A DNA stretch of 64,000 nt, from positions 1-64,000 of IMG/VR virus record IMGVR_UViG_3300011113_000581; one strand, written 5' to 3'. The notes under the pieces are model-generated. The model did not search any database and was not told where the DNA came from. It saw only the letters and a program-made list of their open reading frames with translations. The position numbers and the translations under genes are program-made. Numbering within the stretch: the first letter of the stretch is position 1; each line of letters starts with the position of its first letter. The DNA comes from a virus. Shown here one piece after another: positions 1,223 to 48,653 of the stretch.

Positions 1223-1585
1223 ATGTTCAGTGACGAGAACGCACCACTCGCCCTACTGATCGAAGTAACTCCAAGGTTAGCAAAAAAACGGTTTAGAGAT
1301 GATATTTATAAATCCTGGGATTACAAATGTGGCTATTGTGAAGATGTAGCTACAAGTCTTGATCACATTGTTCCAAGGTTTAAATCTGGTTCTAGCAATA
1401 GAAACAATCTGATTCCAGCTTGTCGTCGTTGTAACAGCAACAAGGGAAGTACAGAAGTAGAGACCTGGTACAAACAGCAAGATTTCTTTACTCAAGCTAG
1501 GATGGAAAGAATTAAATCTTGGATGTCGCAAGAAGTTATCGACATCTTCTCTTGTCAATTAGAAGCTTTGCAGGTGGCTGTTTGA
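1223..1585 (+). CDS. HNH endonuclease
   Basis: The 120-aa product carries a complete HNH nuclease core: CGYCED, then LDHIVPRFKSG, then an Asn-rich strand and CRRCNSNKG. The two CxxC pairs bind structural zinc and DH plus the later N/N form the ββα-metal site. It is followed after one base by the next ORF, so the two are probably co-transcribed. It may be a homing-type nuclease or a packaging-associated HNH; no terminase lies nearby, favouring homing. Confidence 0.85.
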   Translation: MFSDENAPLALLIEVTPRLAKKRFRDDIYKSWDYKCGYCEDVATSLDHIVPRFKSGSSNRNNLIPACRRCNSNKGSTEVETWYKQQDFFTQARMERIKSWMSQEVIDIFSCQLEALQVAV

Positions 1586-4498: not shown

Positions 4499-4538
4499 AT
4501 AGCGTTAAGTGGTAAAATAATTGGGTTGCTTGAACCCA

Positions 4539-5123
4539 ATGTCTAACGCAAACAGACGTTTTGTTTCTGTGCAGTGTGAAGTGTGTGCGTGTGATGGGTC
4601 TATTCGCATAGATCAATATAAGCGTCGACAAGGACTATGGAAGTGCAGATCTTGCAATAAAAAGGGGCAAGTACCAAGTAATAAAGGCACCGGGGTAAAG
4701 AATAATCCTGAACTTTTAAGAACGCGTTCTAGTTATGACAAAGCAAAATATCGTTGCAAGACAGGTCACAGAGGATACTACGTAAATGTTGAATTTCGTT
4801 TTACGTCTCTTCAACAATTAATCGATGAGATTGGGACAAGGCCAAAAGGGCATAGTTTAGATCGTATTAATAATTTGGGTCATTATGAACCTGGTAATGT
4901 AAGATGGGCTACCCACAAAGAACAATGTAGAAATAAACGAAACAATATATTAGTTGAATACAAAGGTAAAATAATGTGCTTAACAGATGCAGCAAAAATT
5001 TCTGGTTTGAATCTTAATACTTTACAAAGAAGGCTTAAAGCTGGTTGTCCATCAAGCCATCTTTTCATGAAAGGACGATGGCGCTATAAAAATGGAAAAT
5101 TAGCTGAACTTAAATTGGAATAA
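4539..5123 (+). CDS. HNH homing-type endonuclease with zinc ribbon and C-terminal DNA-binding helix
   Basis: N-terminal zinc ribbon (CEVCACDG ... CRSCNKKG) is followed by the phage homing HNH signature: SLDRINNLGHYEPGNVRWAT and EQCRNKRNN. The C-terminal 45 residues (DAAKISGLNLNTLQRRLKAG) look like a NUMOD/HTH specificity module. I chose the ATG giving MSNANRR; an upstream TTG lies in a small hairpin (GGGTT-gctt-GAACCC). The gene is probably a free-standing homing endonuclease; its cleavage site is unknown. Confidence 0.85.
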   Translation: MSNANRRFVSVQCEVCACDGSIRIDQYKRRQGLWKCRSCNKKGQVPSNKGTGVKNNPELLRTRSSYDKAKYRCKTGHRGYYVNVEFRFTSLQQLIDEIGTRPKGHSLDRINNLGHYEPGNVRWATHKEQCRNKRNNILVEYKGKIMCLTDAAKISGLNLNTLQRRLKAGCPSSHLFMKGRWRYKNGKLAELKLE

Positions 5124-5323: not shown

Positions 5324-5989
5324 ATGTCCGATTTTTCGCGGGCAATTAAACTTATTAAAAAATATGAGGGGTTTAGCGAAAAAGCTTACCCAGATCCTTG
5401 TACTGGAATAGCTCCCTACACTATTGGGTTTGGTACACAATATTACCCCGATGGTACACCAGTAAAAAAAGAACACTGCTGCACAGAACGTAAAGCATTG
5501 GAGTATTTGAACCACGAAGTGGAAGTCATCAATGATGAATTGATGCGACTTAATCTTGGGCTTGATGAGTCAATGCTTAATGCGTTGATTTCTTTTGTGC
5601 ATTCCATCGGATGGGAACCCTTTTTATATAGCCCCATCATTGACGCAATTGAGATTGAAGATTGGCGTGAAGCGGCAGAACAAATTACGCAATGGGTCTT
5701 TGATCCTTATTACAAAGTAGTTGGCGGCCTCTTGGATCGACGCAGAGAAGAATCGTCGCTTTTCTTATCGGAAATACGTTCTTCCTTGTCGCCCACGGGG
5801 GGCATCTTGCTGAGAGCTTTCTCAAACTTTGGTGGTGCTGAACATCAAATCAAAGCTGTTGAAGCCCTAGAACAAAAAATCAATCCTTATGTATTGGCTG
5901 AATTTGCCAACCAGTACGATCTGGAAACTTGTTTTGATTTTTGCCGGGAATATCCATGGAAGGATTCAGTATTTGAATCTTGGGATTAG
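5324..5989 (+). CDS. GH24 lysozyme-type endolysin
   Basis: N-terminal 150 residues are a T4-lysozyme-like (GH24) muramidase: catalytic Glu in KKYEGF (E15), the following D24 and the YTIGFGT strand with a catalytic Thr. It cleaves the N-acetylmuramic acid to N-acetylglucosamine bond of peptidoglycan. The 221-aa length exceeds the T4 enzyme, with a C-terminal helical extension of unknown role. No signal peptide is seen, so a holin is expected. A short hairpin (GAAATAG/CTATTTC) ends two bases before the ATG. A second, unrelated lysin is at 14336. Confidence 0.88.
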   Translation: MSDFSRAIKLIKKYEGFSEKAYPDPCTGIAPYTIGFGTQYYPDGTPVKKEHCCTERKALEYLNHEVEVINDELMRLNLGLDESMLNALISFVHSIGWEPFLYSPIIDAIEIEDWREAAEQITQWVFDPYYKVVGGLLDRRREESSLFLSEIRSSLSPTGGILLRAFSNFGGAEHQIKAVEALEQKINPYVLAEFANQYDLETCFDFCREYPWKDSVFESWD

Positions 5990-6013: not shown

Positions 6014-6313
6014 ATGGAAAACTCAGTGCAGCCCCGTGAGTTAGAACTTCCTCTTCAGTTGCAGTTTGCAATGCGTAAAGCTGAACTTGAAGCCCAGGAA
6101 ATGACCTGGGACCAACTTTACGCAGCTCTTTTAAACCTGTACCAACGTCGTTTAATTGAGTGGGCTGCCGTGAAAGACATCCTTCAAGACGAAAATATTG
6201 AACTTGAATTTGACTGCCCGACTCAACTTGAACTTATGGAATTGGCCATGATGTGCCAAGGTGATGACGATGATGAAGAAGAAGATGATGACGAACCGAT
6301 GTCAGTCTTCTAA
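6014..6313 (+). CDS. NblA-like phycobilisome-degradation protein with acidic tail
   Basis: Residues about 10-56 (starting ELPLQLQFAMRKAELEAQEM, then T-x-x-QLYAALLNLYQRRL and a final VKDIL) match, without gaps as far as I can recall, the two-helix layout of NblA: L-x-L-x-QQF, an M-S/T turn, Q-x-x-x-x-L-x-x-LY-x-x-x-x-x-R/E, then Y/V-x-x-LL. NblA binds phycobiliproteins and hands phycobilisomes to Clp protease; phage copies are known from cyanophages. Unlike the usual 60-aa protein, this one is 99 aa and ends with a run of about 13 Asp/Glu. Identity is low, so the call needs a profile search. It directly follows the lysozyme gene. Confidence 0.5.
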   Translation: MENSVQPRELELPLQLQFAMRKAELEAQEMTWDQLYAALLNLYQRRLIEWAAVKDILQDENIELEFDCPTQLELMELAMMCQGDDDDEEEDDDEPMSVF

Positions 6314-6532
6314 AAACTGAATCAATCGACCCAAGTACCACTGAGCTTTTTTGAGGGACTCAACACCACCCTTGTGACGCTCCCTCCATAAATATTTCAC
6401 GCAATTTCCTTTCAAATAACCACGATATTCTTCTGCGGTTAGCTGCGCTTCAATAGCTTCAATAGTTTCAATACCACCTTTTGTGTAGTGCGGGGGGTGG
6501 TTCACCACATCTACAGTTTTACGTTGAGGCAT
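6302..6532 (-). CDS. DUF3310 protein
   Basis: A 76-aa protein consisting of a DUF3310 domain: VNHPPHYTKGGIETIEAI, then GYLKGNCVKYLWR and KKAQWYLGRLI. This family is common in phages and sometimes fused to nucleotide-kinase-like proteins; its activity is not established. The ORF is open 180 bases further upstream, but that extension overlaps the next minus-strand gene, so I place the start at MPQRK. Its 3' end overlaps the NblA-like gene by 12 bases tail to tail. Confidence 0.8.
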   Translation of the reverse strand: MPQRKTVDVVNHPPHYTKGGIETIEAIEAQLTAEEYRGYLKGNCVKYLWRERHKGGVESLKKAQWYLGRLIQFLED

Positions 6533-6567
6533 GGGACAGAAACCGTCCTTGCATCCGTCTTCCGAAT

Positions 6568-6930
6568 CTACCGGCTCAAACCACGTCTTTTCTTCGACAA
6601 TTCGATCTCGCTCTCCGGCATCCCCTCCAGTTCCAAGACTAAAGACCTGGGCTTCGGATTGGCGCCCATCTTCATCCCTTCTTCCATACTCGGAATATAC
6701 CCCGTCAGTCCGCATCGCTCTCCTCCTTCAAGTTGTAGGTTCTGGCGCTCACGGCCTTCTTGGGTGAGCACTAAACCCCGATTATAAAGGTCTTGAAGTG
6801 GAACGTCGTGTTTTTCGTTGTCTAGTTCTTGACCAAAATCCATCAGGCTTAAACACCTGTTTTTTACTTCATTATTCGTAACAATGAAGTTATCTAAGAA
6901 GTCGCTCATAGATGACGCAGCGTGCATCAT
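6568..6930 (-). CDS. Hypothetical protein
   Basis: Up to 120 aa, acidic, without recognised motif. Either ATGATG at the 5' end or the internal ATG giving MSDFLDN may be the start. Its last 147 bases are also open in the frame of the DUF3310 gene, so the exact junction of the two genes is uncertain; a frameshifted single product cannot be excluded. Together they form a two-gene leftward unit facing the gene at 6972. Confidence 0.5.
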   Translation of the reverse strand: MMHAASSMSDFLDNFIVTNNEVKNRCLSLMDFGQELDNEKHDVPLQDLYNRGLVLTQEGRERQNLQLEGGERCGLTGYIPSMEEGMKMGANPKPRSLVLELEGMPESEIELSKKRRGLSR

Positions 6931-18988: not shown

Positions 18989-20275
18989 TTACACAGCCAC
19001 CAACTCCCCGGCACTTCCTTTACGTTTCTTTCCTTTCTTACTCTTCTTCTCAAATGCGACAGGTGATACCGCCTGGGGGGTGTCATCAAACGTACCCTCC
19101 AGCACCTCCTGAAACACCTTGTGAAACTCAGCAGCCACCGTTCCCCATTCAAAGCACACGTCCGTAACCCGCTGATAGCAGAGATCTCCAACCCTCTTCA
19201 ACCTCTCCCGATCCTGGTACAGACCGTCCAGAAGCTCTGCCAGGTGGTCATCAGAGGGGCAGGGCATCTCTCGTGCGTAGTTCACGTCCACGTTGATGTG
19301 ATCGCATCTGATTAGCTCCCCATACCCTTCAAAGATCTCCTTACAAGATGTGTGATCCGGAACAATTTGAGCAACTTTGCAACCGGCATGTTCAAAATTA
19401 CAAAGTCCCCAACCTTCTCCAGTAGCAGTGTTGACCCCAACGTCACATGCGTTGTAGATTGTATTAAGCATTTCGACAGAAACAGAAGGAGGATTAGGCC
19501 CCGGTGCCGTCATGATGATCCTTCCGTTTGGATCTAAACCCTGCTTTACCATTTCTCTACCAAACAGTTCAAGAATATCCCACCCTTGGTCCTTAAGACC
19601 CATGTGAAGATAGAGTTTTACGTCAGGCTTACCAACGGCAAACTTTGCAAAACCTGAGATCGTAATGTCAATCCTTTTTCTTGGCTGGTTCCTGTTCCCG
19701 TTAAACACAATAAAATCATCGGGTTGAAGATTAAGTGCTTTACGCGCCTCTTGTTTATCCATAGGATAAAATTGACCCGCAGTAAGTCCGTGTGGAATAA
19801 CGCTTATCGGTTTGCGCACACCACCCTTGATAAATTCGTACGCACCAAACTCTGTGTATGAGACAAGTGCGTCCCAATCATTGGCCGTATCCGAAATAGC
19901 ACCAATCCAGTTGTAGCTATCCATAGGGCAGTACCCCACAAACTTAAATTTCCCAGCTTTGTGTAGATCTTGGATGCGCCTGTACTGCTCGTTAACAATC
20001 CAAATATCATTCATTGTAAAAACAATATCCGGATTTTCACGTTCTACAATCTCTCGAATTCGATCTTCTCCAAACGGAGCCTGTTGAAACCGGTTTGTAG
20101 CCGGGTACATTTTGTATTCAGACTGCAAAGCATCTGGATCTCCGTGCCAGTTGCACCCGAGCACTACAATTTCATATTCATCTTTTAAACGCTCAAGTAC
20201 ATTTTCAGTAACACGAGCAAAACCAGTGGTGGCAATAATGTCGCCGATCCAAAGCAGTTTTTGTTTTTGAGGCAT
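18989..20275 (-). CDS. GT4 family glycosyltransferase
   Basis: A 428-aa GT-B glycosyltransferase: N-terminal LLWIGDIIATTGFARVTENV, a mid-protein NRNQPRKRIDI, and the donor-binding GEGWGLCNFEHAGCKVAQIV with the EX7E-like Glu pair. The C-terminus ends in a Lys-rich stretch. It transfers a sugar from a nucleotide donor, probably in the cytoplasm. I use the internal ATG (MPQKQK); the longer frame adds ten residues without a ribosome site. It has its own terminator and is separated from SpeD by an inserted endonuclease. Confidence 0.83.
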   Translation of the reverse strand: MPQKQKLLWIGDIIATTGFARVTENVLERLKDEYEIVVLGCNWHGDPDALQSEYKMYPATNRFQQAPFGEDRIREIVERENPDIVFTMNDIWIVNEQYRRIQDLHKAGKFKFVGYCPMDSYNWIGAISDTANDWDALVSYTEFGAYEFIKGGVRKPISVIPHGLTAGQFYPMDKQEARKALNLQPDDFIVFNGNRNQPRKRIDITISGFAKFAVGKPDVKLYLHMGLKDQGWDILELFGREMVKQGLDPNGRIIMTAPGPNPPSVSVEMLNTIYNACDVGVNTATGEGWGLCNFEHAGCKVAQIVPDHTSCKEIFEGYGELIRCDHINVDVNYAREMPCPSDDHLAELLDGLYQDRERLKRVGDLCYQRVTDVCFEWGTVAAEFHKVFQEVLEGTFDDTPQAVSPVAFEKKSKKGKKRKGSAGELVAV

Positions 20276-20320
20276 GACGATATGCAATCTTTCTGTACTA
20301 TACAAAATTAAACAGCTTTG

Positions 20321-20773
20321 TTAAGTCTTTTGTAAATATTGAGAGGCAGTTAACAGATACATAGCGTTGTCTTGAAACAGTCCCAAACCTCGGTTGCAGT
20401 TTGAACATAAAATTCCTCTTACTTTTCCCGTCTTATGGCAATGATCAACATCCCACTCTCTGCCTCTTGTATTAATTTTACTTTTGCAGATAGCGCAACA
20501 GTATCCTTGTGTCACAAATAATGCATTTTTTTCTTGTGTAGTTATTCCGAATTTTCTTTTTGTTTTTGTATTTTTAACTTTATCTTTATTGTTTAAATAC
20601 CAGTTTTTGTTTGTTTTTTTAACTTTTTCTTTATTGGTCGTGTAATAATTTCTGTTACGTTGAGAACAACACTCTTTACATTTGCTTCTTAAACCGTTGC
20701 CGTTCTTGTAAAAATTTGTTTTTGCTAACTTTTTTTTACATCCTGAGCAGGTTTTTAGCTCTAAAATACTCAT
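20321..20773 (-). CDS. Recombination endonuclease VII family protein (copy 1)
   Basis: Zinc-site Cys pairs (CSGCKKK..., CKECC) in the N-terminus, then the endonuclease VII core AICKSKIN ... DVDHCHKTGKVRGILCSNC and NRGLG. The His-Me site (DHCH ... N) is intact. In T4, endonuclease VII resolves branched DNA; free-standing copies are also mobile genes. The gene is much more AT-rich than SpeD and the glycosyltransferase around it. Two paralogues lie at 24033 and 32896. Confidence 0.88.
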   Translation of the reverse strand: MSILELKTCSGCKKKLAKTNFYKNGNGLRSKCKECCSQRNRNYYTTNKEKVKKTNKNWYLNNKDKVKNTKTKRKFGITTQEKNALFVTQGYCCAICKSKINTRGREWDVDHCHKTGKVRGILCSNCNRGLGLFQDNAMYLLTASQYLQKT

Positions 20774-20872
20774 GTGACCATCTGGTTGGTTGCCGTGGGC
20801 AGGGAGTTGGCGCTCCGCTGCCCTTATATTTTACCAGTTTTAACAGGAAAATCGGAACTTATCCGAGTATAC

Positions 20873-21229
20873 CTAACTATTCAAACATGTTGACCTAAGT
20901 AATTCCCGTTCTACCGCAGTCTTCGCCTGTAACTTCTCTTTCCAATATTCGACAGCTCTCCTTGTATTCATATTCTCTCCGCAGGTATACACATCTAACG
21001 CCGCATACTCTTCCTGGGGCCAGGTATGAATAGACGCATGAGACTCAGCCAGTAGTGCCAATAGCGTCACACCTTGCGGTTCAAACTTATGGCCAGCTAA
21101 ATTCAACATGTGTGCATTAGCCAAACTCATGGCATCACACATAACCTCATACAAGTAGTCATAGTCATCCAAGACGTACGGATCACAGCCGTACAAATCA
21201 AGGATGACATGATGCCCCTGGTTACCCAT
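20873..21229 (-). CDS. speD: S-adenosylmethionine decarboxylase proenzyme
   Basis: 118 aa with the prokaryotic AdoMetDC signature LLAESHASIHTWP. Counting from my start, the predicted self-cleavage is E62-S63, giving the pyruvoyl group, with catalytic H68 and C83 (DVYTCG) at the expected spacing. It makes decarboxylated AdoMet for spermidine synthesis. The ATG overlaps the last codons of the primase-helicase gene (ATGGGTAA), so it is translationally coupled. SpeD is a known cyanophage auxiliary gene; no spermidine synthase is in the window. Confidence 0.92.
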   Translation of the reverse strand: MGNQGHHVILDLYGCDPYVLDDYDYLYEVMCDAMSLANAHMLNLAGHKFEPQGVTLLALLAESHASIHTWPQEEYAALDVYTCGENMNTRRAVEYWKEKLQAKTAVERELLRSTCLNS

Positions 21230-23849
21230 CAAACATATTTTCGTCAATATCTTCCATTCTCGCATTAGGATCCGCTTTTATCTTCACTCCATAATCCAAT
21301 TCAAATTTATCCGGGTTGGCAGCCACCGTTACAGCACTTGGATAGTTCTCATACTTTGGATCTGAATCCCTTACTACCACATTGAATACCCTCATTCCTT
21401 TCGTATTCCGTTTGCTGTAAACATTCAGATTCAACTGATGCCTACAAATATCAAGGAACAGTGGCTCAAATCGGTTTCTTGACATGACGTTCACATTACA
21501 CTGTTTACAGAACTCTGCGTAACTGGCATACAACCACTTATCTTGATTTGTATACAGATGTGAACTCCCCTGTGGCGCAGGCTTCACAAACCCAACAGCA
21601 GCCGACACCCCTGGTTCGTAAACAACCCTATGTTCCATCCAATCCAGGATTGAGTTAGAACGCAGGTTTTGTGTATGCGAATACTTCTTAAAGAACTCCA
21701 CTTTTTGGTTGGTTTCCATCAGATACTCCCGCATTTCCGCTTCGGTCATATCCAATAACCAGTTCACCAACCCTGGCAACAGAGCAGCAAATTCACCTTG
21801 CGGTTCACCCTTAGTGTTGAACTTAATCAAATCACGCTGCTCCCTGGAACTACCAGTAAATGGACGATCGAATGGAACAGTAAGCCTCCGTCGTGCCAGA
21901 CCAGATGTGTAATCAGTTGACTGGATGGCCTCATTAGCTGTAACAATTACCAACCCCTTGAACTGAAAGGGTTCATAATTCTCGTTCTGATACTTACGTT
22001 CTGCACGAATCCAGTCGTTACCCGTAATCGCTTTTAACCTAGAGACCGAACCACCCCACCTATCCGCATCCTGGAACAACAGTAGTTTTTTACCCATGTA
22101 ACTAGCTGCTTCAAAACGGTTCTTCTCCAGATTCTCAAAGTCTGTCGAGTACACGTTCTTCTTTCCAACCAGTGCTACAGCCAAGTTTGCATAAGTAGAC
22201 TTACCTGATTTTCCCGGACCGACAATCTCAATAAACTTCTGGATTTCATAGGTACTCAATAGTGTGGCTCTTAACCAAGCCCTTAGTACTTGAGTCCTTT
22301 GCCAGTTATCAAACTGTGTATGCTTCAGCCACTTAACGATTGGTTCACAAGTAGCTGCAGGGTTATAGGCATACGGAATCTGCTGGGTCAAATAAAGATC
22401 CCTTCTAAATGGAAGAAGTTCTCTCGTTTCAACATCCAACACCCCATTAGTAAACAACAGATACCTATTCCCTTCATACCAATCTTTCATACACAGAACC
22501 GCCTGGAGCTGCTCATGTATGTCGTTTAGCATCCGCGCAGTAAACCCTTTTGGCAACAAGCTTTTTATTCCAGGACTTTGTAACTTGTCACGAATATCTC
22601 CAATCATTTCCACTTTCATAATTGGAGACCAAAGACCAGCACGTTCCCTTTGATACATAAAGAACTGGCCGTGTGGGATGCTATACCTCAGATCCCCTTT
22701 ATAACTACTTAACAAAAGATCAGAAATTTCACTAGCTGATTTATTTTCTGTTTTACTATCTTTCTCATTTTCTTCTCTACCTTTTATCCGTTTTTGCTGT
22801 TTAGTTTCTTTTACCTCTTTTACTGCAGGCTCCATATTGGATTCAACTTCCTCTAAAACTTTGGTGATACGATCAAGCATGTCATCAGACACATTAAGTG
22901 CCGCAGGGTGTTCTTCTTTGGGTTGCCAGCCAGTCTCTTTAGCAATGTGGATAAGAGAGCCAATACCCCTGCCACCACCTTTTGAAAAAGACTTCCATCT
23001 CCTCTGGCACTCGCCAGGTTTGTACTTATCACTCTGCTTGGACCAATCATCCCAAACATCAAGGAGTGATTCATCAAGTGAATGAAGTGCTTGCCCTGCT
23101 GTAATCCAGATGTCATAATCATCTGCTGCCTCTGGAGGCATTGCCCAAGTAGCTTCAATTGCTAATTGAATGTCCCTCTCCAACGAGATCCGAGTATTAA
23201 TAGCGAACCCTGGACCTACAACACGACCATTCTCTTCTGCTGGTAAACCTTGCTTTTCGTTCTTACTCTTAATCCCTTCCAGAATCCAGGATGGCAGTTC
23301 AGGAATCCTGGAACACCACTCAAAACCCAACCCTTCTGGCGTAAAGTAACCATCAGTCTGCGGGTGAGAACCCATCAACACCCCCTGGTGCCGCTTCCAA
23401 AGGATCTCTAATTTTTCTTTTTCTTTTTCTGCATGCCAGACGTACTTATTACGGACAACATGAACCCAATCTTTTTGTAGCAATTTATACAGTCGGCGTT
23501 CCCTACCTTCCTTACCGCTACAAATTGTTAGGGTCGGCGGGAGTGCTTGTTCAAACACATAGCCCGACACTTCTTCAACTAACTGATAAACACTCGGTCC
23601 ATCTACGTCAACCCAAATAAAACCATAAGGATTGTTGTAGCAAGGACCACCAATCAAACCAACTGCATGGCAATTACCGCCTTCAATTTCTGCAGCAATT
23701 TCTTCTTTGGTTTGTGGTTTATTCTGCCACCCAGTCAGATATGGATTTTTATTTTCACCCAACGGAGTAAGGGGCCATTCCATTGGCACCCAATCCAAAT
23801 TAATTTCCCCAGGTAGTAACTTCATACTATTAGCGTTAGTCATACGCAT
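21222..23849 (-). CDS. Primase-polymerase/SF3 helicase
   Basis: 875 aa. The N-terminus is an archaeo-eukaryotic primase-like domain with the DxD motif in GFIWVDVDGPS (about residues 77-86) and GLIGG upstream. A D5-type linker leads to an SF3 helicase with Walker A GPGKSGKST at about 545, Walker B-like LLLFQDADRW, and GLVIVTANE as motif C. It unwinds and primes DNA at the phage fork. The enzyme type is that of P4/D5-like and NCLDV-like replicases rather than the DnaB/DnaG-like T7 gp4, although the polymerase at 42224 is T7-like. A charged low-complexity spacer lies around residues 340-370. Confidence 0.88.
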   Translation of the reverse strand: MRMTNANSMKLLPGEINLDWVPMEWPLTPLGENKNPYLTGWQNKPQTKEEIAAEIEGGNCHAVGLIGGPCYNNPYGFIWVDVDGPSVYQLVEEVSGYVFEQALPPTLTICSGKEGRERRLYKLLQKDWVHVVRNKYVWHAEKEKEKLEILWKRHQGVLMGSHPQTDGYFTPEGLGFEWCSRIPELPSWILEGIKSKNEKQGLPAEENGRVVGPGFAINTRISLERDIQLAIEATWAMPPEAADDYDIWITAGQALHSLDESLLDVWDDWSKQSDKYKPGECQRRWKSFSKGGGRGIGSLIHIAKETGWQPKEEHPAALNVSDDMLDRITKVLEEVESNMEPAVKEVKETKQQKRIKGREENEKDSKTENKSASEISDLLLSSYKGDLRYSIPHGQFFMYQRERAGLWSPIMKVEMIGDIRDKLQSPGIKSLLPKGFTARMLNDIHEQLQAVLCMKDWYEGNRYLLFTNGVLDVETRELLPFRRDLYLTQQIPYAYNPAATCEPIVKWLKHTQFDNWQRTQVLRAWLRATLLSTYEIQKFIEIVGPGKSGKSTYANLAVALVGKKNVYSTDFENLEKNRFEAASYMGKKLLLFQDADRWGGSVSRLKAITGNDWIRAERKYQNENYEPFQFKGLVIVTANEAIQSTDYTSGLARRRLTVPFDRPFTGSSREQRDLIKFNTKGEPQGEFAALLPGLVNWLLDMTEAEMREYLMETNQKVEFFKKYSHTQNLRSNSILDWMEHRVVYEPGVSAAVGFVKPAPQGSSHLYTNQDKWLYASYAEFCKQCNVNVMSRNRFEPLFLDICRHQLNLNVYSKRNTKGMRVFNVVVRDSDPKYENYPSAVTVAANPDKFELDYGVKIKADPNARMEDIDENMFDG

Positions 23850-24028
23850 GCCTCCTGGGAAGTAACTTGTACTTTAAAATCTTTCCCTTGAAACTGTGTT
23901 TCTTTTAATAGATTGAAAGCATGGAGGTGCATTTCAGTCGGGAGAAGAAAACAATCTCCTTCCATCGCATTATTCATGCGAAGACAAAGGGATTGCATCC
24001 ACTCCCCAGTTGCAACATGGATGTTCAT
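23840..24028 (-). CDS. Small hypothetical protein
   Basis: 62 aa (starts MNIHVATGEWMQSLCLRMNN), overlapping the primase-helicase start by ten bases (ATGCGTATGA), so it is coupled. No motif recognised; possible replication accessory from position only. Confidence 0.55.
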   Translation of the reverse strand: MNIHVATGEWMQSLCLRMNNAMEGDCFLLPTEMHLHAFNLLKETQFQGKDFKVQVTSQEACV

Positions 24029-24032
24029 TTTT

Positions 24033-24476
24033 TTAAAAGTTTTTGTTTAAATACTGAATTGCTTGAAATAAAATTTCATCATTATCTTTAAAAAACCCAA
24101 GACCCCGGTTGCAGTTTAAACACAATAAACCTCTTATTTCACCTGTTGTGTGACAATGGTCTACTGCAAATCTTTTTATGTGACCGCCCCCTGGCACATT
24201 TGTTTTACAGATTGCACATTTATTGTCTTGTTTTTTTAATTGTTTATTATATTCAACAAGTGAAAAATTATAACGTTTTTTAAGTTGCGCATTGGTTTGT
24301 GTTTTTAAATATTTTTCTTTATTTTTAATACGATATTCTTTTGATTCTTTAGCTGCACATTTTTTACATTCTGATCTATGTTTTTTATCTCTACTATGAA
24401 AACCGTATTCATTAAGATTTTTTTCTTGCCCGCAAAGACGACAAATTTTTAGCAGACCGACATCGGCTGTTTCCAT
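24033..24476 (-). CDS. Recombination endonuclease VII family protein (copy 2)
   Basis: 147 aa, same architecture as copy 1: CRLCGQEKN and CKKCAAKE zinc pairs, Lys-rich linker, then AICKTNVPGG and VDHCHTTGEIRGLLCLNCNR plus GLGFF. Very AT-rich. It splits the exonuclease side of the operon from the primase side, as expected for a mobile endonuclease. Confidence 0.88.
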   Translation of the reverse strand: METADVGLLKICRLCGQEKNLNEYGFHSRDKKHRSECKKCAAKESKEYRIKNKEKYLKTQTNAQLKKRYNFSLVEYNKQLKKQDNKCAICKTNVPGGGHIKRFAVDHCHTTGEIRGLLCLNCNRGLGFFKDNDEILFQAIQYLNKNF

Positions 24477-24585
24477 GGGGCGGATTTGTTTTCAGTCTCT
24501 TTATCCTACGTCTCCCAACCTTATGGGAACCTTATAACTTAACTAAGATCAGCAAGTCTTATTAGACTCAATTCTGGATGAGGAT

Positions 24586-24903
24586 TCAACTGCCAGTTGT
24601 ATTTTCATTTGTTTCTCCTCTTCCGTTAAGTTTTTCCACTTCTGCTTCAGCCTCTGCAACCCATTTGGCAACGAGTCGCATTTCTCCTCCGAGCAACCGT
24701 GACTCTCCTGTTTGCAATTCATTGTCAACTTCCTTCTCCTGGTAGATCGGTTCAAATCTTTCCTTTCGTTCTTGCTCTGATTCCCACTGGTTCTCAAGTT
24801 CGATCATCTTGAGACGAGCCGTTAGTTTGGCTTCAAACCAAACTTTCTTCCACCATTTAATTACTTCTTTCCAAATCTCAAACCAGATCTGGGTCATAAT
24901 CAT
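24586..24903 (-). CDS. Charged helical hypothetical protein
   Basis: Up to 105 aa, starting inside the nuclease stop region (ATGATTATGACC; the second ATG is equally possible). Tryptophan-rich N-terminus (QIWFEIWKEVIKWWKKVW) then a long Glu/Lys helix, probably amphipathic or coiled. Function unknown; coupling suggests a partner of the exonuclease. Confidence 0.6.
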   Translation of the reverse strand: MIMTQIWFEIWKEVIKWWKKVWFEAKLTARLKMIELENQWESEQERKERFEPIYQEKEVDNELQTGESRLLGGEMRLVAKWVAEAEAEVEKLNGRGETNENTTGS

Positions 24904-25729
24904 CTACCTCTTTAATTTGATCATAGTATTCTTTTACTACCTTCAACCACTTTTCCCTCATAATATTGAGATGATTCCTGGTGATAATGAAGAGTTGCGT
25001 ACGTTCTTCCGTTGCGACCAAAATGGCCCCCTGCTGGACCTTCATCCCCAACGTTTGTTCAATCCCAAGGTCATATGCACCCAATTGAAGACAACACTTA
25101 TTAAATTTCATATATCCGCCCAGCCCTTGTCTCCATTCAGGCGAACCTTTCTCCAGATGTTTAGGCCATCGCCTGTGGTACGGACCAGTCGAAGTTTTTA
25201 GATCTGCTAACGTCAGTTTATTTCCAGCCACTCCAATAATATCTGGTGATCCAGCCCATGCTCTTCCGTCATCATCACAACCCCACACCCTACCAACACC
25301 ATCATCTGATAATGCAAACTTATGTTTTTCCCACAGCGGCGTCTCAGCCCAGATAACTTCCTGGAACTGATCCAACATTGGTGGCATCCCATCCCAAAAC
25401 TTTGCATACTCCTCTGGTACAGAGAATTCTTCCCGCTTGAGGTAGTGCTCCATACAAGAGTGAATTGAAGTACCACGCTCTGCAGCCGCTTCTTTTACCC
25501 CTGGATTATTTTTAGCCCACATCTCCAACTTTTTCTTGTTGGCTTCTGATGCAGTTTGTCCAATAATGGTCGTAACCGATGGTGCTGGACCAGTTAGGAA
25601 AGGAGTATGATAATGGCGCTTACCATTTATTTCTACTCGCGCAGGCTTAGCGTTTAACTCTTCAAGAAGCTCAGGTTCTTCAACGTAACGCTGGTACCAA
25701 GGTTCGGTCGGAATATCAGCTACAACCAT
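24878..25729 (-). CDS. PD-(D/E)XK exonuclease (RecB/YqaJ-like)
   Basis: 283 aa with the nuclease core: a GTSIHSCMEHYLK helix, WAGSPDIIGVAGNKLTLADLKTS giving the D ... D-x-K catalytic strand pair, and a following GYMKFNKCCLQLGAY helix. Family members are 5'-3' exonucleases for recombination or host DNA recycling. It opens the leftward replication operon (nuclease, small proteins, prim-pol helicase, SpeD). Confidence 0.83.
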   Translation of the reverse strand: MVVADIPTEPWYQRYVEEPELLEELNAKPARVEINGKRHYHTPFLTGPAPSVTTIIGQTASEANKKKLEMWAKNNPGVKEAAAERGTSIHSCMEHYLKREEFSVPEEYAKFWDGMPPMLDQFQEVIWAETPLWEKHKFALSDDGVGRVWGCDDDGRAWAGSPDIIGVAGNKLTLADLKTSTGPYHRRWPKHLEKGSPEWRQGLGGYMKFNKCCLQLGAYDLGIEQTLGMKVQQGAILVATEERTQLFIITRNHLNIMREKWLKVVKEYYDQIKEVDDYDPDLV

Positions 25730-25809
25730 GAAAGATTGTGTGTATTCCTTACATTCTAATTCTTTTTTAAAATTTTGCGCTACGCTATAGGCACTGGGAC
25801 TCCAGAAAA

Positions 25810-25965
25810 ATGACCACCAATTTTACCCGTTTTTACTACGAGGACTTAACAGATGAGCCCCCTCGTCTAGATCAAGTGTTTGAAGATATTGACAAAGAAG
25901 AGGCAGATGCACACGAAGCAATGCTCATCAACCAAAAAATTGATTACATTCGTATTGAATTGTGA
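25810..25965 (+). CDS. Small acidic hypothetical protein
   Basis: 51 aa (MTTNFTRFYYEDLTDEPPRL...), ends IDYIRIEL. Its TGA overlaps the next ATG (TGATG), so it is coupled to the glycosyltransferase gene. No motif recognised. Confidence 0.6.
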   Translation: MTTNFTRFYYEDLTDEPPRLDQVFEDIDKEEADAHEAMLINQKIDYIRIEL

Positions 25966-26807
25966 TGGCTACTGTTGCAGTCCTTGCTCTTTGGCGTGAT
26001 TCCGAATCCTATCTCAAGTATTCCCTTGCACAATTTGATGCAATGGAAGAAGCCCTCCTGGAGAAAGGAATCAATACTATTTACGCATTTTTTGAAAATG
26101 ATTCAACGGACAAAACTCCTCAACTCCTCCAATCCTGGCTGCAAGACCGAATGGGTTTTGTAATTTCAGAGCATATTGGCGCACCCAAATGGGGAAGTGT
26201 TGCCTCCCTGGAGCGTGTTCGTTACCAAGCTAGGTACCGAAACATGGCACTTCAACTTGTAACCAATTATTACAACTTTGATTATCTCTTGGTTGCAGAC
26301 AGTGATGTGCAATGGGAACCGTCTCTCATCACTGGAATGATTGAACACCTGGATTCGAATGAAAACTGGGGGATGGTCTCACCTAATACCACGCAAAATG
26401 TGCGTGATTTCATTGAGGATACAGATCGTCCCTCCTACTTTGACAGTTGGTCCCTCCTTGATTCCCATGGGACACAGTGTATGACATTTGCTGCCAACCC
26501 ATTTCTTACCAAAGAAGATCGCGACTTGTGGGATCAAGGCAAACCAGTTGCTTGCAATAGTGCATTTGGTTCTATTGCCATGGTTAAAGCAGAAGCTCTT
26601 GATGAAGTGGACTGGTCGGTCATCGACGGCGTGGAGCATTGGGAATTTTGTAAGGGTATCCGTTTGAATGGCTACCTTGTCATTGCAGACCCCACCCTCC
26701 ATGCCAAAGTAACCCACAAAAAAGAGGTGGTTCCCCACCCCGATGTAGTACGAAGGCACCAGGAAAGGCTCTCAAGTAGCCTCATGGCAACATTCGTCAG
26801 ACGTTAA
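25965..26807 (+). CDS. Glycosyltransferase, CAP59/GT69-like or GT2-like (copy 1)
   Basis: 280 aa. Motifs: FENDSTDKTPQLLQ, VRYQARYRNMALQ, then a DSDVQ acidic metal-binding motif in LLVADSDVQWEPS and a later WEFCKGIRLNG. This order (E-N-D-S-T-D, R-x-x-x-RN-x-A, D-x-D) recalls alpha-mannosyltransferases of the CAP59 group. It is paralogous to 29039. It converges with the GDP-mannose dehydratase gene, overlapping by 11 bases. Confidence 0.65.
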   Translation: MATVAVLALWRDSESYLKYSLAQFDAMEEALLEKGINTIYAFFENDSTDKTPQLLQSWLQDRMGFVISEHIGAPKWGSVASLERVRYQARYRNMALQLVTNYYNFDYLLVADSDVQWEPSLITGMIEHLDSNENWGMVSPNTTQNVRDFIEDTDRPSYFDSWSLLDSHGTQCMTFAANPFLTKEDRDLWDQGKPVACNSAFGSIAMVKAEALDEVDWSVIDGVEHWEFCKGIRLNGYLVIADPTLHAKVTHKKEVVPHPDVVRRHQERLSSSLMATFVRR

Positions 26808-27828
26808 CTTGCCGAAGATCGTGGTCAACCATTTCAAACACCAACTCATCCAACGAAATTTCTGGCACCCAACCAAGCAATTCTTCTGCTTGTTTTGAAT
26901 CCCCAAGGAGTGTATCTACTTCTGCTGGACGATAGTACTCAGGATTAATCTTAATTACTTCTTTACCCAGTCGATAACAGTACCCAACTTCATCAACACC
27001 TTTTCCTCGCCAACTCAGATCAAGACCCGCAGCTTTAAACGCTTTCTCACAAAAGGAACGAACACTAGTCTGAATCCCAGTTGCCACAACGTAATCCAAC
27101 GGTCCCTCTTCCCTCTGGAGCATGAGGTACATTGCTCTCACATAGTCTTTTGCATGACCCCAATCCCTACGTGCATCTAAATTTCCCAACTCAATCCAAT
27201 CCCTGGTACCAGACCAAACATCTGCTACACCCTTTGTAATCTTCCGAGTAACAAACTCTTCCCCCCTAATCGGAGACTCGTGATTAAAGAGGATGCCATT
27301 ACATCCGAACAATCCGTAGCTCTCTCGATAATTGACCGTCAACCAATACCCAAATAACTTGGCGACACCATATGGACTACGCGGATGGAAGTACGTCCCC
27401 TCATTCTGTGGCACTTCTCTTACCTTACCAAACATCTCCGATGTCGACGCCTGGTAAAACTTAGGCATGTGTTTTGTATTACGACATGCTTCCAAAATAT
27501 TGAGAACGCCAAGTGCATTGATGTGTGCCGTACTACCTGGAGACTTAAAGCTGACACCAACATGACTCTGGGCCGCCAAATTGTACACCTCATCTGGACC
27601 AAAAGAATCCACAAGCCGATGCATTGATGTTGCATCAGTCATATCCGAATATTCAAACTGCACTTCCTGTGGGATAGACCCATCAAAGATCCATTTCAAT
27701 TTATTCAATTTGCCTGGATTTGCATTATTCCTAACCAACCCCATCACCTGGTAGCCTTCATCCACCAACAACTTGGTTAAATAAGCACCATCTTGGCCAG
27801 TAATTCCTGTCACCAAAGCTTTTTTCAT
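26797..27828 (-). CDS. gmd: GDP-mannose 4,6-dehydratase
   Basis: 343 aa, extended SDR family: N-terminal ALVTGITGQDGAYLTKLL (NADP-binding G-x-x-G-x-x-G), VYNLAAQSHVGVSF, STSEMFGKV with the catalytic Ser/Thr and Glu, and SPYGVAKLFGYW with Y-x-x-x-K. RRDWGHAKDYV is characteristic of Gmd. It turns GDP-D-mannose into GDP-4-keto-6-deoxy-D-mannose. Divergent from the ColD-like gene over a 50-base region; the product is the ColD substrate. Confidence 0.93.
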   Translation of the reverse strand: MKKALVTGITGQDGAYLTKLLVDEGYQVMGLVRNNANPGKLNKLKWIFDGSIPQEVQFEYSDMTDATSMHRLVDSFGPDEVYNLAAQSHVGVSFKSPGSTAHINALGVLNILEACRNTKHMPKFYQASTSEMFGKVREVPQNEGTYFHPRSPYGVAKLFGYWLTVNYRESYGLFGCNGILFNHESPIRGEEFVTRKITKGVADVWSGTRDWIELGNLDARRDWGHAKDYVRAMYLMLQREEGPLDYVVATGIQTSVRSFCEKAFKAAGLDLSWRGKGVDEVGYCYRLGKEVIKINPEYYRPAEVDTLLGDSKQAEELLGWVPEISLDELVFEMVDHDLRQVNV

Positions 27829-27878
27829 TGGAATTATTCCTTATACTGGCAGTATAACGAATGAAAAAGGTTTGAGGA
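27829..27878. promoter_or_regulatory. Divergent promoter with palindromic -10 region
   Basis: TTATACT-GGC-AGTATAA (27841-27857) is a perfect inverted repeat that offers a TATACT-type -10 box in each direction. It lies between the gmd and ColD-like genes. GAGG precedes the rightward ATG. Confidence 0.45.
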
Positions 27879-29051
27879 ATGACCAAATTTAATTGGCCCC
27901 TCCAAAAAAACACTATTGGTTTTGACGAGAAGTTTGCACTAATCAAATTTATTCTTACCTCTAGCCGTTTTACCAACGGTCCTAAGTGCCGTCAATTTGA
28001 AGAAGCCTGGTCCAAATGGCAAGGACGTAAATATTCCTTGTTTGTCAGCAGTGGCACAACAGCCAACACCCTCCTCCTGGATGCAGTACGCGATTTGTAT
28101 TTTGGTAAGAAACGCAAATTAAAAATCTTGTGCCCTGCCGTCAACTGGGCAACCAACATCTCAACGTTTAAGCAGCAAGGTCACGATATTTTCTTTTATG
28201 ACATTGATTACACCAACTACTCACCTACCTATTCTTCTCTCAAAAGATACCATGATGTAGGCATTGAACCAGATGTTGTGTACGTAACACACATCATGGG
28301 GTTTGCCAATGAACTAGCTAACGTCAAAAAGTTCTGGCCCGATGCCATCATCCTGGAAGACTGCTGTGAATCCCATGGAGCAGAGAATAGCAATTTTAAA
28401 AAAGTAGGTAATGAAGGATTAGGTTCAACTTTCTCCTTTTACTTTGGTCATCATATGACAACAATTGAAGGAGGCATGGTCTGTACAGATGACCAGGATC
28501 TTTACAATCTAATGAGAGCCAAACGATCTCATGGCATGTCTCGTGAGATGCTTGGTAACTACCGTGACCTGGAGGAACGCCTAGCACCCGACATTGATCC
28601 GTCCTTCCTCTTCCCAACCGAAGGATACAACTTCCGCAACACTGAGATTGGAGCTGTCCTTGGCCTGGTTCAACTTAAAAAACTCGATTTATTTATCCAG
28701 AAAAGACAAGATAACTACACGCTTTTCTTGGATTGTTTAGTTGGCCATCCCTGGATTAAATCTTTACCTTCTCCTATTGGCAACAGTGCAATGACACTTC
28801 CATTCCATTGCAAGTCACCTGAAACAAAACAAATTCTTAAAAGCAGGCTCAAAGAGATGGGTGTAGAAACACGTCCGTTTCTTGTTGGTAATCTACTCAG
28901 ACAGCCTTTTATGTCTGACTACAAACAACAACCATACTTACCCAACAGTGAAGAAATTCACACCCATGCTTTCTACATTGGTAACAACCATTTTGTAAAT
29001 CAATTTCAAATTCTTTCTCTTAGCGAGGAGCTTTACAAATGCGTTTCTTGA
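27879..29051 (+). CDS. ColD-like PLP-dependent sugar 3-dehydratase (DegT/DnrJ/StrS fold)
   Basis: 390 aa with the sugar aminotransferase fold: SSGTTANTLLLDA, ILEDCCESHGAE, and the PLP strand STFSFYFGHHMTTIEGGM. Ordinary aminotransferases have Lys at the first His of GHH; His there (H191) is the hallmark of ColD, GDP-4-keto-6-deoxymannose 3-dehydratase, and of RfbH-type E1 enzymes. ColD removes the C3 hydroxyl on the way to GDP-colitose. With Gmd next door, the pathway assignment is strong; a reductase/epimerase (ColC) is not visible here. Confidence 0.78.
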   Translation: MTKFNWPLQKNTIGFDEKFALIKFILTSSRFTNGPKCRQFEEAWSKWQGRKYSLFVSSGTTANTLLLDAVRDLYFGKKRKLKILCPAVNWATNISTFKQQGHDIFFYDIDYTNYSPTYSSLKRYHDVGIEPDVVYVTHIMGFANELANVKKFWPDAIILEDCCESHGAENSNFKKVGNEGLGSTFSFYFGHHMTTIEGGMVCTDDQDLYNLMRAKRSHGMSREMLGNYRDLEERLAPDIDPSFLFPTEGYNFRNTEIGAVLGLVQLKKLDLFIQKRQDNYTLFLDCLVGHPWIKSLPSPIGNSAMTLPFHCKSPETKQILKSRLKEMGVETRPFLVGNLLRQPFMSDYKQQPYLPNSEEIHTHAFYIGNNHFVNQFQILSLSEELYKCVS

Positions 29052-41354: not shown

Positions 41355-42170
41355 TCAAAAGGGAGGTTCGCCATCGTCATCTGTAGGAGAGTTTAGTGTA
41401 TAGCCTGGGAGGTCAGGCAGGTTGGTTCCCGTTTGGGCACCCCAAGGTTCAGCAAGATCTTCAGCGACCTTACCGCCCCACAGGCTAGCTACTCCAGTGC
41501 CAGATGCAACAGTTGTTTGTGGTTGAATAGATTTATTTTCGCTATTGTCTTTAGGTGACAAAGTCATAGATACCAATTGAATCTTGGTAGCAACTTTGCG
41601 CTCTTTAGTTTCTTTATCAGTCCAAGCATCAGTTACCAATCTGCCCTGGATCGTAAGACCTACACCTTTACGCGTGAAGTTAACAAGAAGTTCAGCATTG
41701 TTTAACTTATCTTCTGCAGTATTAATTGCATAGAAGTTAAACAGATCTGACTGATTTCTACCCATATAAACACCAAGGGTTTGATTGCAAATCATTAACC
41801 CATCCGGTGTAGTTTTAAATGCACGTGCATCATTTTGGTCGATGTCTTTAACACACCTTCCACTGAGAATGATTGTATTAAGGATTGGGAATGATGCGTC
41901 AACTTGTGTAACAATTCCTCCATGCAAGGAATACGTTTTTGTATTGATGTCGTATCGCAGCTTGGCGCCGTGAATGTAGATTTGTGCATTTGCTGGTACA
42001 CGGGCAAACCGTTCAGCAGCCTTGCCATAAACATTTAGTTGAATTGGAGTTGGTGCTTTATTACCTACTGGAGGCAACAACACATTACATACAGTTGCAA
42101 AAGAGCTTTCGCTAATTGCTTTTTCTTTAGGTGCTTCAGTTGTCTGGGCACAAAGGAATGAAAGATTCAT
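41355..42170 (-). CDS. ssb: Single-stranded DNA-binding protein
   Basis: 271 aa. Residues about 150-215 show the OB-fold SSB pattern LVNFTRKGVGLTIQGRLVTD, W-x-D-K-E-T-K-E-R and a following IQLVSMTL strand. A flexible Gly/Thr/Pro linker ends in TDDDGEPPF, the acidic-Pro-Phe tail through which SSBs recruit partners. The N-terminal half seems to hold a second OB-like domain. The start is the ATG after the pseudoknot element; the longer open frame translates the element itself and is rejected. Confidence 0.83.
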   Translation of the reverse strand: MNLSFLCAQTTEAPKEKAISESSFATVCNVLLPPVGNKAPTPIQLNVYGKAAERFARVPANAQIYIHGAKLRYDINTKTYSLHGGIVTQVDASFPILNTIILSGRCVKDIDQNDARAFKTTPDGLMICNQTLGVYMGRNQSDLFNFYAINTAEDKLNNAELLVNFTRKGVGLTIQGRLVTDAWTDKETKERKVATKIQLVSMTLSPKDNSENKSIQPQTTVASGTGVASLWGGKVAEDLAEPWGAQTGTNLPDLPGYTLNSPTDDDGEPPF

Positions 42171-42184
42171 TAGATTAAACAGTT

Positions 42185-42220
42185 GGTGGTAAAACAGTTT
42201 AACGTCATACCTGGGACGGT
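42185..42220 (-). promoter_or_regulatory. Pseudoknot-type leader element, copy 3
   Basis: Minus strand CCGTC-CCAGGTAT-GACG-TTAAAC, with GGTA of the loop able to pair with TACC nine bases downstream. It lies between the DNA polymerase stop and the SSB start. Confidence 0.6.
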
Positions 42221-42223
42221 ACA

Positions 42224-44089
42224 TCAGTGTGTATCAAACCAGGTGTAGCCTACCTTAGCATCGCCATCGATAGGACAACGGAAGTTAAAGAAGTGTTGAG
42301 CTTTTGGAAAAGCTTCCAATGCTACAGACTTAAGTGTATCCGTTAGCTCTGGTTTGCAAGCCAACTGGACTTCATCATGGATCATAGCTGCTTGTTGCCA
42401 ATCAATACCATGGACATAACCAAGTTCATCCATATCTGTATGAATGTTAATAACAACTTGTTTCATAATTAATGCACCTGCTGATTGCAATAAAACATTC
42501 AATGCTTTGAAATCAGACCTGCAATAAAGAATACGTTTATCTAAACCACGCAACCAGTTATTTTGTTGTAGTGTTTTTGCAAGATGTTCTTTAAGTTTAC
42601 GTAGTGCTGGGACACCATCCATGAATGAATTAATTGCAGTACTACCTAGTTTGCGCAGTATTATTTCATTTTTTTCATTCGGATCAATAACAGTTCCTGC
42701 TTTAAGTGCACCGGCTCCATAGGCTACAGCGTATAGAAGACGCTTTGAAATATCTCTGGTAGCTACACCAAAACGTTCTTGATTATAAACATGAATGTCG
42801 ATTGATTCATCTGTTACTACACGTGCGTACTCACCGTTATCCCAGTATGCAAGATAACCAGCAAGACACCTAAGTTCCAAAGCTTTGGCATCTACACCAA
42901 TTAACTCCCAACCATCTGGTGCATGAAACAAAGATCTACATTCTTTACCATAGGGTGAATATGCTGCTGGCACTTGAGCCATATTTGGATCACGATGGCT
43001 ACAACGTCCAGTAATACAACCATTAGTTATTACATCACCATGTACACAACCAGTGTCATTATTAACTAACTTAAGCCAAGCATTTTTACCATCAGCAATT
43101 TGACCAAGACGTTTCTCAATCAACATATATTCAGCTAAAGGTTTGGCTTCTGGATACGGAAGCTTTTCAAGTACGTCATCATCAAGGACAGGGTTTCCTT
43201 TTTCAGTTGACTTACTTGGTTTCCATCCATATTTTTGTTGGAGCCGCTGAACAATTTGCTGTCTGGATCCAGGATTAAATTCTTCCAGTCGAACTTTTTC
43301 AAACGGAACTCCTTTTACATAACCACGTGCTTTGTTATTAACCTTTGGTATAAATACTTCTTTATGTTCAATAGGTGGAAAAATTTCTTTTAGATGTGTT
43401 TGTAGTTCTGTTTCTTTTGCTCTGAGACTATCCACCAGATCAAGAGCTGCATCCACATCAAAAGGAAAACCTGCTCGCACTTGTGACTCAATACATCTAG
43501 CAAAGTCATGTTCAAGCTTAAGTGCTGGCTCTGGATAGTTTTGATTTTGAATTTTTTCAAATAATTTTGTAGTAACTGCAACGTCTTGCCTACAATACTC
43601 AGCCATTGCTTCCGAGTATTCTGAGAAGTCTTTGAAGTCAATCTTGTAATCAGCCAACCGATAGCCCCATGCCTTAAGTGAGGCTGAACCACGGAGATTC
43701 TTTGGAACCTCCGTATATTGTTCTTCATCAAGTTCATAAAGTTTTTCTTTGGGCCAAATGAGTCGAGTACAAATGAGTGTGTCAATAACTCGTGCAGCTT
43801 TAAACGTATAAAACGGATAGAGCTTACGAATTACAGGCAAGTCGTAGAACAAGATGTTATGGCCAATGAGCACATGAGCCCGAGCCAAATGCTCGAGACC
43901 ACTAGCAATATCATCAGGCCCATAAGTAAAAGTTTGTTTTCGCTGGACATCATACAGTACCAAGCAATGTATCTTTGTAACCTTGTCATAAAGATTATCA
44001 GTTTCTAAATCAAACACATACCAGTTCTCAACCTCTGAACTTGCCTTCAGCGGAAACTTCAAGGTTTTGACTAGCGAGGTCTGTGTCAT
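42224..44089 (-). CDS. Family A DNA polymerase, T7-like
   Basis: 621 aa. 3'-5' exonuclease motifs: YVFDLETDNL (D27, E29), LIGHNILFYD and YCRQDVAVT. Polymerase motif A LIGVDAKALELRCLAGY (around residue 398), motif B SKRLLYAVAYGAG, motif C MIHDEVQL (around 571). Order and spacing match T7 gene 5-type polymerases. It copies the phage genome, working with SSB next door. Start ATG is within the end of the 77-aa gene upstream. Length is shorter than T7 gp5 (about 700 aa). Confidence 0.93.
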   Translation of the reverse strand: MTQTSLVKTLKFPLKASSEVENWYVFDLETDNLYDKVTKIHCLVLYDVQRKQTFTYGPDDIASGLEHLARAHVLIGHNILFYDLPVIRKLYPFYTFKAARVIDTLICTRLIWPKEKLYELDEEQYTEVPKNLRGSASLKAWGYRLADYKIDFKDFSEYSEAMAEYCRQDVAVTTKLFEKIQNQNYPEPALKLEHDFARCIESQVRAGFPFDVDAALDLVDSLRAKETELQTHLKEIFPPIEHKEVFIPKVNNKARGYVKGVPFEKVRLEEFNPGSRQQIVQRLQQKYGWKPSKSTEKGNPVLDDDVLEKLPYPEAKPLAEYMLIEKRLGQIADGKNAWLKLVNNDTGCVHGDVITNGCITGRCSHRDPNMAQVPAAYSPYGKECRSLFHAPDGWELIGVDAKALELRCLAGYLAYWDNGEYARVVTDESIDIHVYNQERFGVATRDISKRLLYAVAYGAGALKAGTVIDPNEKNEIILRKLGSTAINSFMDGVPALRKLKEHLAKTLQQNNWLRGLDKRILYCRSDFKALNVLLQSAGALIMKQVVINIHTDMDELGYVHGIDWQQAAMIHDEVQLACKPELTDTLKSVALEAFPKAQHFFNFRCPIDGDAKVGYTWFDTH

Positions 44090-48062: not shown

Positions 48063-48563
48063 TTATGTTACATATTTATTATTAAGAATATAATGCAATG
48101 TTCCTTTAGAACTAATATTAAATTTTTCCATTAAAGCTTTATATCCTAAACCATTTGAATGATCGTTTTTAATCTGATTAATTTGATCTTTTGTGTATTT
48201 GCGTATACAACTTGATGCTTTAATTGCATGATTCAATCGTTGTTTTGAACATCTGTCTAACATGTTTTCTGTTTGAGTTCCAATGCAAATATTGTCAAAC
48301 GAATTATCTTTACTATTTCCATTTAAATGTCTAACAACTATGCCAACTTCAAATAATTTTTCTTGATATTTTTCATACGCAACTAAACGATGCAGAAATA
48401 CTTTATGTGTTTTTGTACTTATTTTTAAATTAAAAAATAAATAGCCAGACTGAGAGCAACTTAATTTTAAAGGTTCTTTCTTGCGAATACCATAAACAAT
48501 ATTATTTTTTACTCGATAGCCTTTTCGATAAGCACATATTAAAGCGGTTTGAGCTTGATTCAT
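48063..48563 (-). CDS. HNH homing endonuclease with HTH
   Basis: 166 aa. HNH_3-type core VFLHRLVAYEKY ... VVRHLNGNSKDNSFDNICIG ... NMLDR, then a C-terminal HTH (KYTKDQINQIKNDHSNGLGY then KALMEKFNISSKGTLHYIL). It begins 16 bases downstream of a tRNA gene, a typical place for homing nucleases. AT-rich. Confidence 0.83.
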   Translation of the reverse strand: MNQAQTALICAYRKGYRVKNNIVYGIRKKEPLKLSCSQSGYLFFNLKISTKTHKVFLHRLVAYEKYQEKLFEVGIVVRHLNGNSKDNSFDNICIGTQTENMLDRCSKQRLNHAIKASSCIRKYTKDQINQIKNDHSNGLGYKALMEKFNISSKGTLHYILNNKYVT

Positions 48564-48578
48564 AAATAATAAAAAGAC

Positions 48579-48653
48579 TGCCGACGACAGGATTCGAACC
48601 TGCACTTGAGTGATTTTAAGTCACTTACCTTCTTCCAATTGGGTTACGTCGGC
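48579..48653 (-). tRNA. tRNA with UAA anticodon and short variable loop (tRNA-Leu-like)
   Basis: 75 nt. Acceptor GCCGACG/CGTCGGC with A73, T-arm GCAGG-TTCGAAT-CCTGT, anticodon stem AGTGA/TCACT and loop CTTAAAA, giving UAA (codon UUA, Leu). Bacterial tRNA-Leu normally has a long variable arm; here only five bases separate anticodon and T stems. No CCA is encoded. The first 33 nt overlap the 3' end of the gene at 48621, whose TGA stop lies in the anticodon stem. Confidence 0.75.

Follow-up and report, generated by a model that had tools for sequence, protein, structure and literature searches.

Cyanobacteria take their light-harvesting antennae apart with the help of a small protein, NblA. Does a short open reading frame behind the lysozyme gene of a cyanophage encode a form of it, and what would its long acidic tail add? 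The window analysed here, 64,000 nucleotides in length, comes from a cyanophage record of 88,133 bases, and its closest DNA match among phage records was Synechococcus phage S-EIV1. The phage record gives Synechococcus sp. PCCC-A2c as the host of isolation of S-EIV1. The proposal in the initial annotation of a phycobilisome-bearing host is consistent with this, although the host of the window phage itself is not fixed by it. The genes of the window, as identified with Pfam, include those for lysozyme, DUF3310, dCTP deaminase, a family A DNA polymerase, SSB and primase. Sugar genes encoding glycosyltransferases, a GDP-mannose 4,6-dehydratase and a DegT-type aminotransferase lie at 18989-29051 and possibly change a surface glycan. 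Two HNH endonuclease-type genes were also seen, one at 4521-5123, shortly upstream of the lysozyme gene, and one at 48063-48605.

The gene under study and its two neighbours are arranged as follows.
5324-5989, + strand: lysozyme (endolysin) gene (Pfam Phage_lysozyme, 5.9e-19), the conserved neighbour directly upstream
6014-6313, + strand: NblA-like gene, 99 aa plus stop (open reading frame, Pfam NblA 15 bits, S-EIV1 homologue)
6302-6715, - strand: DUF3310 gene (Pfam, 4.5e-20), convergent, with a 12-base overlap with the end of the NblA-like gene

The reading frame is intact on the + strand, from an ATG at 6014 to a TAA at 6311-6313, and encodes a 99-aa protein of the sequence MENSVQPRELELPLQLQFAMRKAELEAQEMTWDQLYAALLNLYQRRLIEWAAVKDILQDENIELEFDCPTQLELMELAMMCQGDDDDEEEDDDEPMSVF. 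That it is a real gene was borne out by relatives in viral contigs, purifying selection and a conserved neighbour. One scan of IMG/VR returned at least 94 relatives and a second at least 565, with family members of 93-106 aa. The S-EIV1 homologue (AHV82245.1), annotated as 'hypothetical protein', is 81.5% identical over residues 1-81. When codons were compared with those of 114 relatives, pN/pS was 0.165 across residues 1-60 and 0.307 across residues 61-80; the gene evolves under purifying selection. A scan of a genome collection found no cyanobacterial homologue, the sole match lying in an archaeal MAG, on a contig that looks like phage DNA.

The relationship to NblA concerns the following part of the protein.
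6038-6190, + strand: NblA-like helix-loop-helix core, residues 9-59 (1OJH profile match, hhalign, AF2)

Family-level profiles were used to assess this relationship, since a search with a single sequence is weak evidence. By itself, the window protein scored 15.0 bits (E=0.034) against Pfam NblA (PF04485), or 16.9 bits when trimmed, and missed the cut-off of 25; the S-EIV1 homologue scored 17.4 bits. The cut-off was passed by two marine relatives, from G008 (27.5 bits) and G007 (25.6 bits). Similar scores of 28.0, 25.1 and 24.2 bits were obtained for S-TIP37, S-SRP01 and KBS-P-1A, which belong to the cyanopodoviruses, a group with reported nblA (PMC9602691). Across the family, 22 of 25 members matched Pfam NblA (best E 2.3e-5), as did 45 of 48 tail-trimmed members (best E 1.1e-6). 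The Pfam alignment of the window protein covers exactly 47 residues (12-58), placed without gaps on NblA positions 2-48 of 50, in agreement with the earlier description of its central 47 residues as NblA-like.

When a profile of 25 family members was searched against all PDB sequences, Anabaena NblA (1OJH) came first (E=3.3e-4), with residues 9-59 aligned to residues 4-54 of 1OJH over 51 residues and without a gap, and a tail-free profile of 48 members had 1OJH as its sole match at E<=10. An hhalign comparison of the family with nine cyanobacterial and phage NblAs gave a probability of 93% and a score of 39.4, against 20.6 or less in 200 column shuffles and 11.1 with a reversed profile. The NCBIfam NblA model, NF045916, did not match the window protein, L080 or the S-EIV1 homologue, and the window protein matched no other NCBIfam model. 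A Pfam NblA search of the phage's own genome at E<=0.001 returned nothing, so that annotation would miss this gene. S-SCSM1, S-TIM5 and Mic1 were also without a match to the Pfam NblA model, although nblA has been reported for the first two. Nothing meaningful was matched by the NblA-like protein in PHROGs or PADLOC. Weak matches to Pfam Dynactin_p62 and PHF12_MRG_bd, and those to HRD1 in the PDB, were set aside as noise, being short or caused by the tail.

For the trimmed core, AF2 predicted two helices, at residues 14-28 and 32-59, with a mean pLDDT of 88, and hence a monomer modelled as a two-helix hairpin. The model of the full protein has a third helix at residues 71-82 (mean pLDDT of 76 over residues 71-80) and a disordered tail. 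Foldseek searches of the PDB with the full and trimmed models did not return NblA, the short hairpin being a poor query that was run without an NblA control, and nothing useful was obtained from BFVD with either model. The initial annotation would have given up its NblA assignment had there been no profile hit together with a fold other than the NblA hairpin dimer; profile matches were found and a hairpin was predicted for the monomer. The assignment is supported by the family-level Pfam matches, the relatives above the cut-off, 1OJH as first PDB match and hhalign with its shuffle control, although the window protein alone remains under the Pfam cut-off. Overall, the comparison of sequences supports residues 9-59 as a remote homologue of NblA.

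The lysozyme gene was found directly upstream of the NblA-like gene in all 149 testable loci. In the window, the NblA-like start comes 25 bases after the lysozyme stop, and no promoter-like site was seen between the two genes. The DUF3310 neighbour was conserved in 139 of 142 loci, and gene order was kept. Neighbouring genes were chosen as anchors to guard against circularity in counting core genes, and the NblA-like gene was present in 66/66 testable contigs anchored on lysozyme and in 65/65 anchored on dCTP deaminase, two sets that overlap each other and the contigs in which the gene had been found, and are thus partly dependent, with a reach of fairly close relatives. Among the contigs checked, the NblA-like gene is a core gene of the S-EIV1-like lineage. 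A metabolic gene taken from a host would be expected to occur sporadically, so this status is unlike that of such a gene and is compatible with a different function as well. A DUF3310-like gene also adjoins the NblA gene in cyanopodoviruses (L083, L084 and L085, identified by reading the sequence and without a profile), where it lies behind nblA on the same strand, the arrangement in the S-EIV1 group being convergent; the two groups are otherwise different phages.

Beyond the core, three further segments were distinguished.
6191-6256, + strand: C-terminal extension absent from NblA, residues 60-81, DxPTxxELxELA (family alignment; AF2 helix 71-82)
6263-6295, + strand: acidic run, residues 84-94, 11 consecutive Asp/Glu, predicted disordered (pLDDT about 50 or below)
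6296-6310, + strand: C-terminal tip PMSVF, residues 95-99 (terminal Phe in relatives)

Within the extension, D67, P69, T70, E73, L77 and A78 are invariant in the family alignment. Neither the conservation of residues 60-81 nor the near-invariant C-terminal Phe had been mentioned in the initial annotation, which gave the acidic tail as ending the protein in about 13 Asp/Glu; the tail is present, but its run is of 11 (D84-E94, DDDDEEEDDDE) and is followed by PMSVF. All 92 distinct relatives carry an acidic tail, with 5-14 Asp/Glu after residue 80, and 91 of the 92 distinct members end in Phe (QPF 44, SVF 19, SPF 8, VPF 7), the exception being L088, on a contig in an archaeal MAG. Only this reading frame, out of 135 in the genome, has at least nine acidic residues among its last 20, far more than chance would produce. 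The 64 distinct NblAs of cyanopodoviruses inspected as a control had at most four acidic residues in the last 15, and a terminal Phe was seen in 0/64. The earlier view of an extended NblA with an unusual tail agrees with this control, although the variant is lineage-wide and not peculiar to the window. The acidic run is coded by GAT/GAC/GAA repeats, and tail length differs among relatives, a pattern expected from replication slippage, although the terminal Phe is retained.

NblA acts as an adaptor that links phycobilisome proteins to ClpC (PMC7966870), and expression of phage NblAs from other lineages leads to a loss of phycobilins (PMC9602691). The most economical interpretation is that the present protein works in the same way. 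We give a probability of about 0.58 to the NblA-like gene encoding a phage NblA-type proteolysis (Clp) adaptor for phycobiliproteins, fixed in the S-EIV1-like lineage. Judging from the sequence profile and predicted hairpin, the first 60 residues would form the NblA helix-loop-helix, which, by analogy with NblA, most likely dimerises. The protein would then bind phycobiliproteins, as NblA does, and present them to the host ClpC/ClpP-R protease; phycobilisomes would be dismantled during infection, which would free amino acids and reduce light stress. Most likely, the extra helix and the acidic, Phe-ended tail would serve either as a further docking site or for self-shielding, and so tune which partner is bound. 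In the initial annotation, the tail was suggested to make contacts with Clp or with phycobiliproteins, which it may do.

The sequence departs from NblA at positions that bear on this proposal. The L..EQ.F motif of NblA reads LPLQLQF in the window protein and LPLELQF in marine members; the Leu, the following Gln and the Phe are kept, and the Glu-Gln pair, invariant in the NblA comparison set, is lost (Q15-L16 in the window protein, Glu-Leu in the marine ones). Two residues that matter for phycobiliprotein binding by Anabaena NblA, Leu51 and Lys53, correspond in the gapless register to Ile56 and Gln58, and the lysine is missing. Loss of the Glu-Gln pair and of Lys53 counts against an NblA adaptor. 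Together with the retained core, it would suit an antagonist of host NblA, which would form a heterodimer with host NblA or occupy ClpC without delivering phycobiliproteins, and so preserve the antenna. Synechocystis NblA1 and NblA2 act as a heterodimer (Baier et al. 2014, as cited in PMC7966870), but the phage NblAs tested promote degradation (PMC9602691), albeit in different lineages, and we regard such an antagonist as improbable. It is slightly less improbable, though still unlikely, that an NblA-derived hairpin has been reused in late functions, for example as an assembly or lysis helper: the constant place behind lysozyme, the presence in every neighbour-anchored contig and the lack of a visible promoter-like site between the two genes form the pattern of a core late gene, whereas PHROGs offered no structural or lysis family match and no transmembrane segment is visible in the sequence. 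The sub-threshold Pfam score of the window protein alone and the Foldseek result would be explained if there were no true relation to NblA and an acidic, perhaps DNA-mimicking phage protein had acquired NblA-like helices by convergence. The gapless full-length match, the shuffle control, relatives above the Pfam cut-off and 1OJH as the sole tail-free PDB match all argue otherwise, as does the absence of a match in the PADLOC defence library, and we consider this very unlikely.

A further possibility concerns the tail, whose tip has a suggestive, though not established, likeness to that of a protein encoded elsewhere in the window.
41355-42224, - strand: phage SSB gene (Pfam SSB, 5.1e-7), C-terminus DDDGEPPF, used for comparison only

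SSBs of S-EIV1-type phages end in DDDGEPPF, DDSDPPF, DMEEVPF, DLEEVPF, DDENAPF or MTDEPF, and the E. coli SSB-Ct, DDDIPF, engages many partners, as quoted in PMC5872125 and PMC7145534. In three genomes of 130-144 reading frames each, 9-10 end in Phe. Under one fixed rule, an acidic tip with Phe was found in the NblA-like protein and SSB of the window genome (G000) and of G014, with one further reading frame in G000. In S-EIV1, where the NblA-like tip has basic residues (DDLRKELAPF), SSB alone satisfied the rule. The protein could on this basis be bifunctional, with a hairpin that engages the protease and a tail that, imitating SSB, recruits or competes for host DNA replication and repair proteins. 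The near-universal terminal Phe, mostly as QPF, SPF, VPF or TPF after the acidic run, speaks for this; most marine members (QPF, VPF) have a Pro-Phe end after acidic residues. The window tip, EPMSVF, however, lacks the Pro-Phe pair, the acidic stretch is longer than that of SSB, the S-EIV1 tip is partly basic, and slippage in GAT/GAA runs easily yields acidic tails. An SSB-like role of the tail seems unlikely. Like the tip of E. coli SSB, the NblA-like tail runs from acidic residues to a free C-terminal Phe, often as Pro-Phe; unlike SSB, the protein has no OB-fold, its acidic run is longer and its tip in the window is SVF.

The S-EIV1 group is widespread but has been little studied. A published survey places it in the top five of marine cyanophage groups by abundance and lists hli and ptoX, and no nblA, among its photosynthesis genes (PMC5332604, Table 2). 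In the open-licence literature, no paper was found that treats an acidic C-terminal extension of a phage NblA. If the core gene is an NblA adaptor, antenna dismantling would be built into the lineage's basic programme in freshwater as well as marine settings, and would not be an occasional extra. The conserved tail would then offer a direct way to study how a second binding site can be given to an adaptor only some 60 residues long. A MAG labelled Euryarchaeota (G009) holds two further NblA-like proteins on phage-like contigs C40 (L106, L197) and C39 (L110, L198), which are about 113-115 aa long, score 24.8 and 21.4 bits in Pfam NblA over 31-32 positions and have acidic C-terminal extensions; their genes adjoin an HNH gene seemingly similar to window 1223-1585. 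They may represent another extended phage NblA type.

Compared with known systems, the protein shares with cyanobacterial NblA/Ycf18 (PF04485; 1OJH, 2Q8V, 2QDO, 3CS5) a gapless helix-loop-helix register of about 50 aligned residues, together with the L..xQF start and +MS/T turn. In contrast, cyanobacterial NblA is about 60 aa long, tail-free and equipped with the Glu-Gln pair, whereas the NblA-like proteins are 93-106 aa long and carry a further helix and an acidic, Phe-ended tail. The NblAs of cyanopodoviruses (S-TIP37, KBS-P-1A, S-SRP01), a group for which Nadel et al. 2019 reported nblA (cited in PMC9602691), are likewise phage-encoded, score 24-28 bits in Pfam and have a DUF3310-like neighbour, but differ in their proline-rich N-terminus and in the position of the gene behind an exonuclease gene. 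Freshwater phage NblAs (Ma-LMM01, MaMV-DC, PaV-LD) have the core in common with the NblA-like protein; unlike it, they score 45-52 bits in Pfam, near cyanobacterial NblA, and are 54-65 aa long and without a tail.
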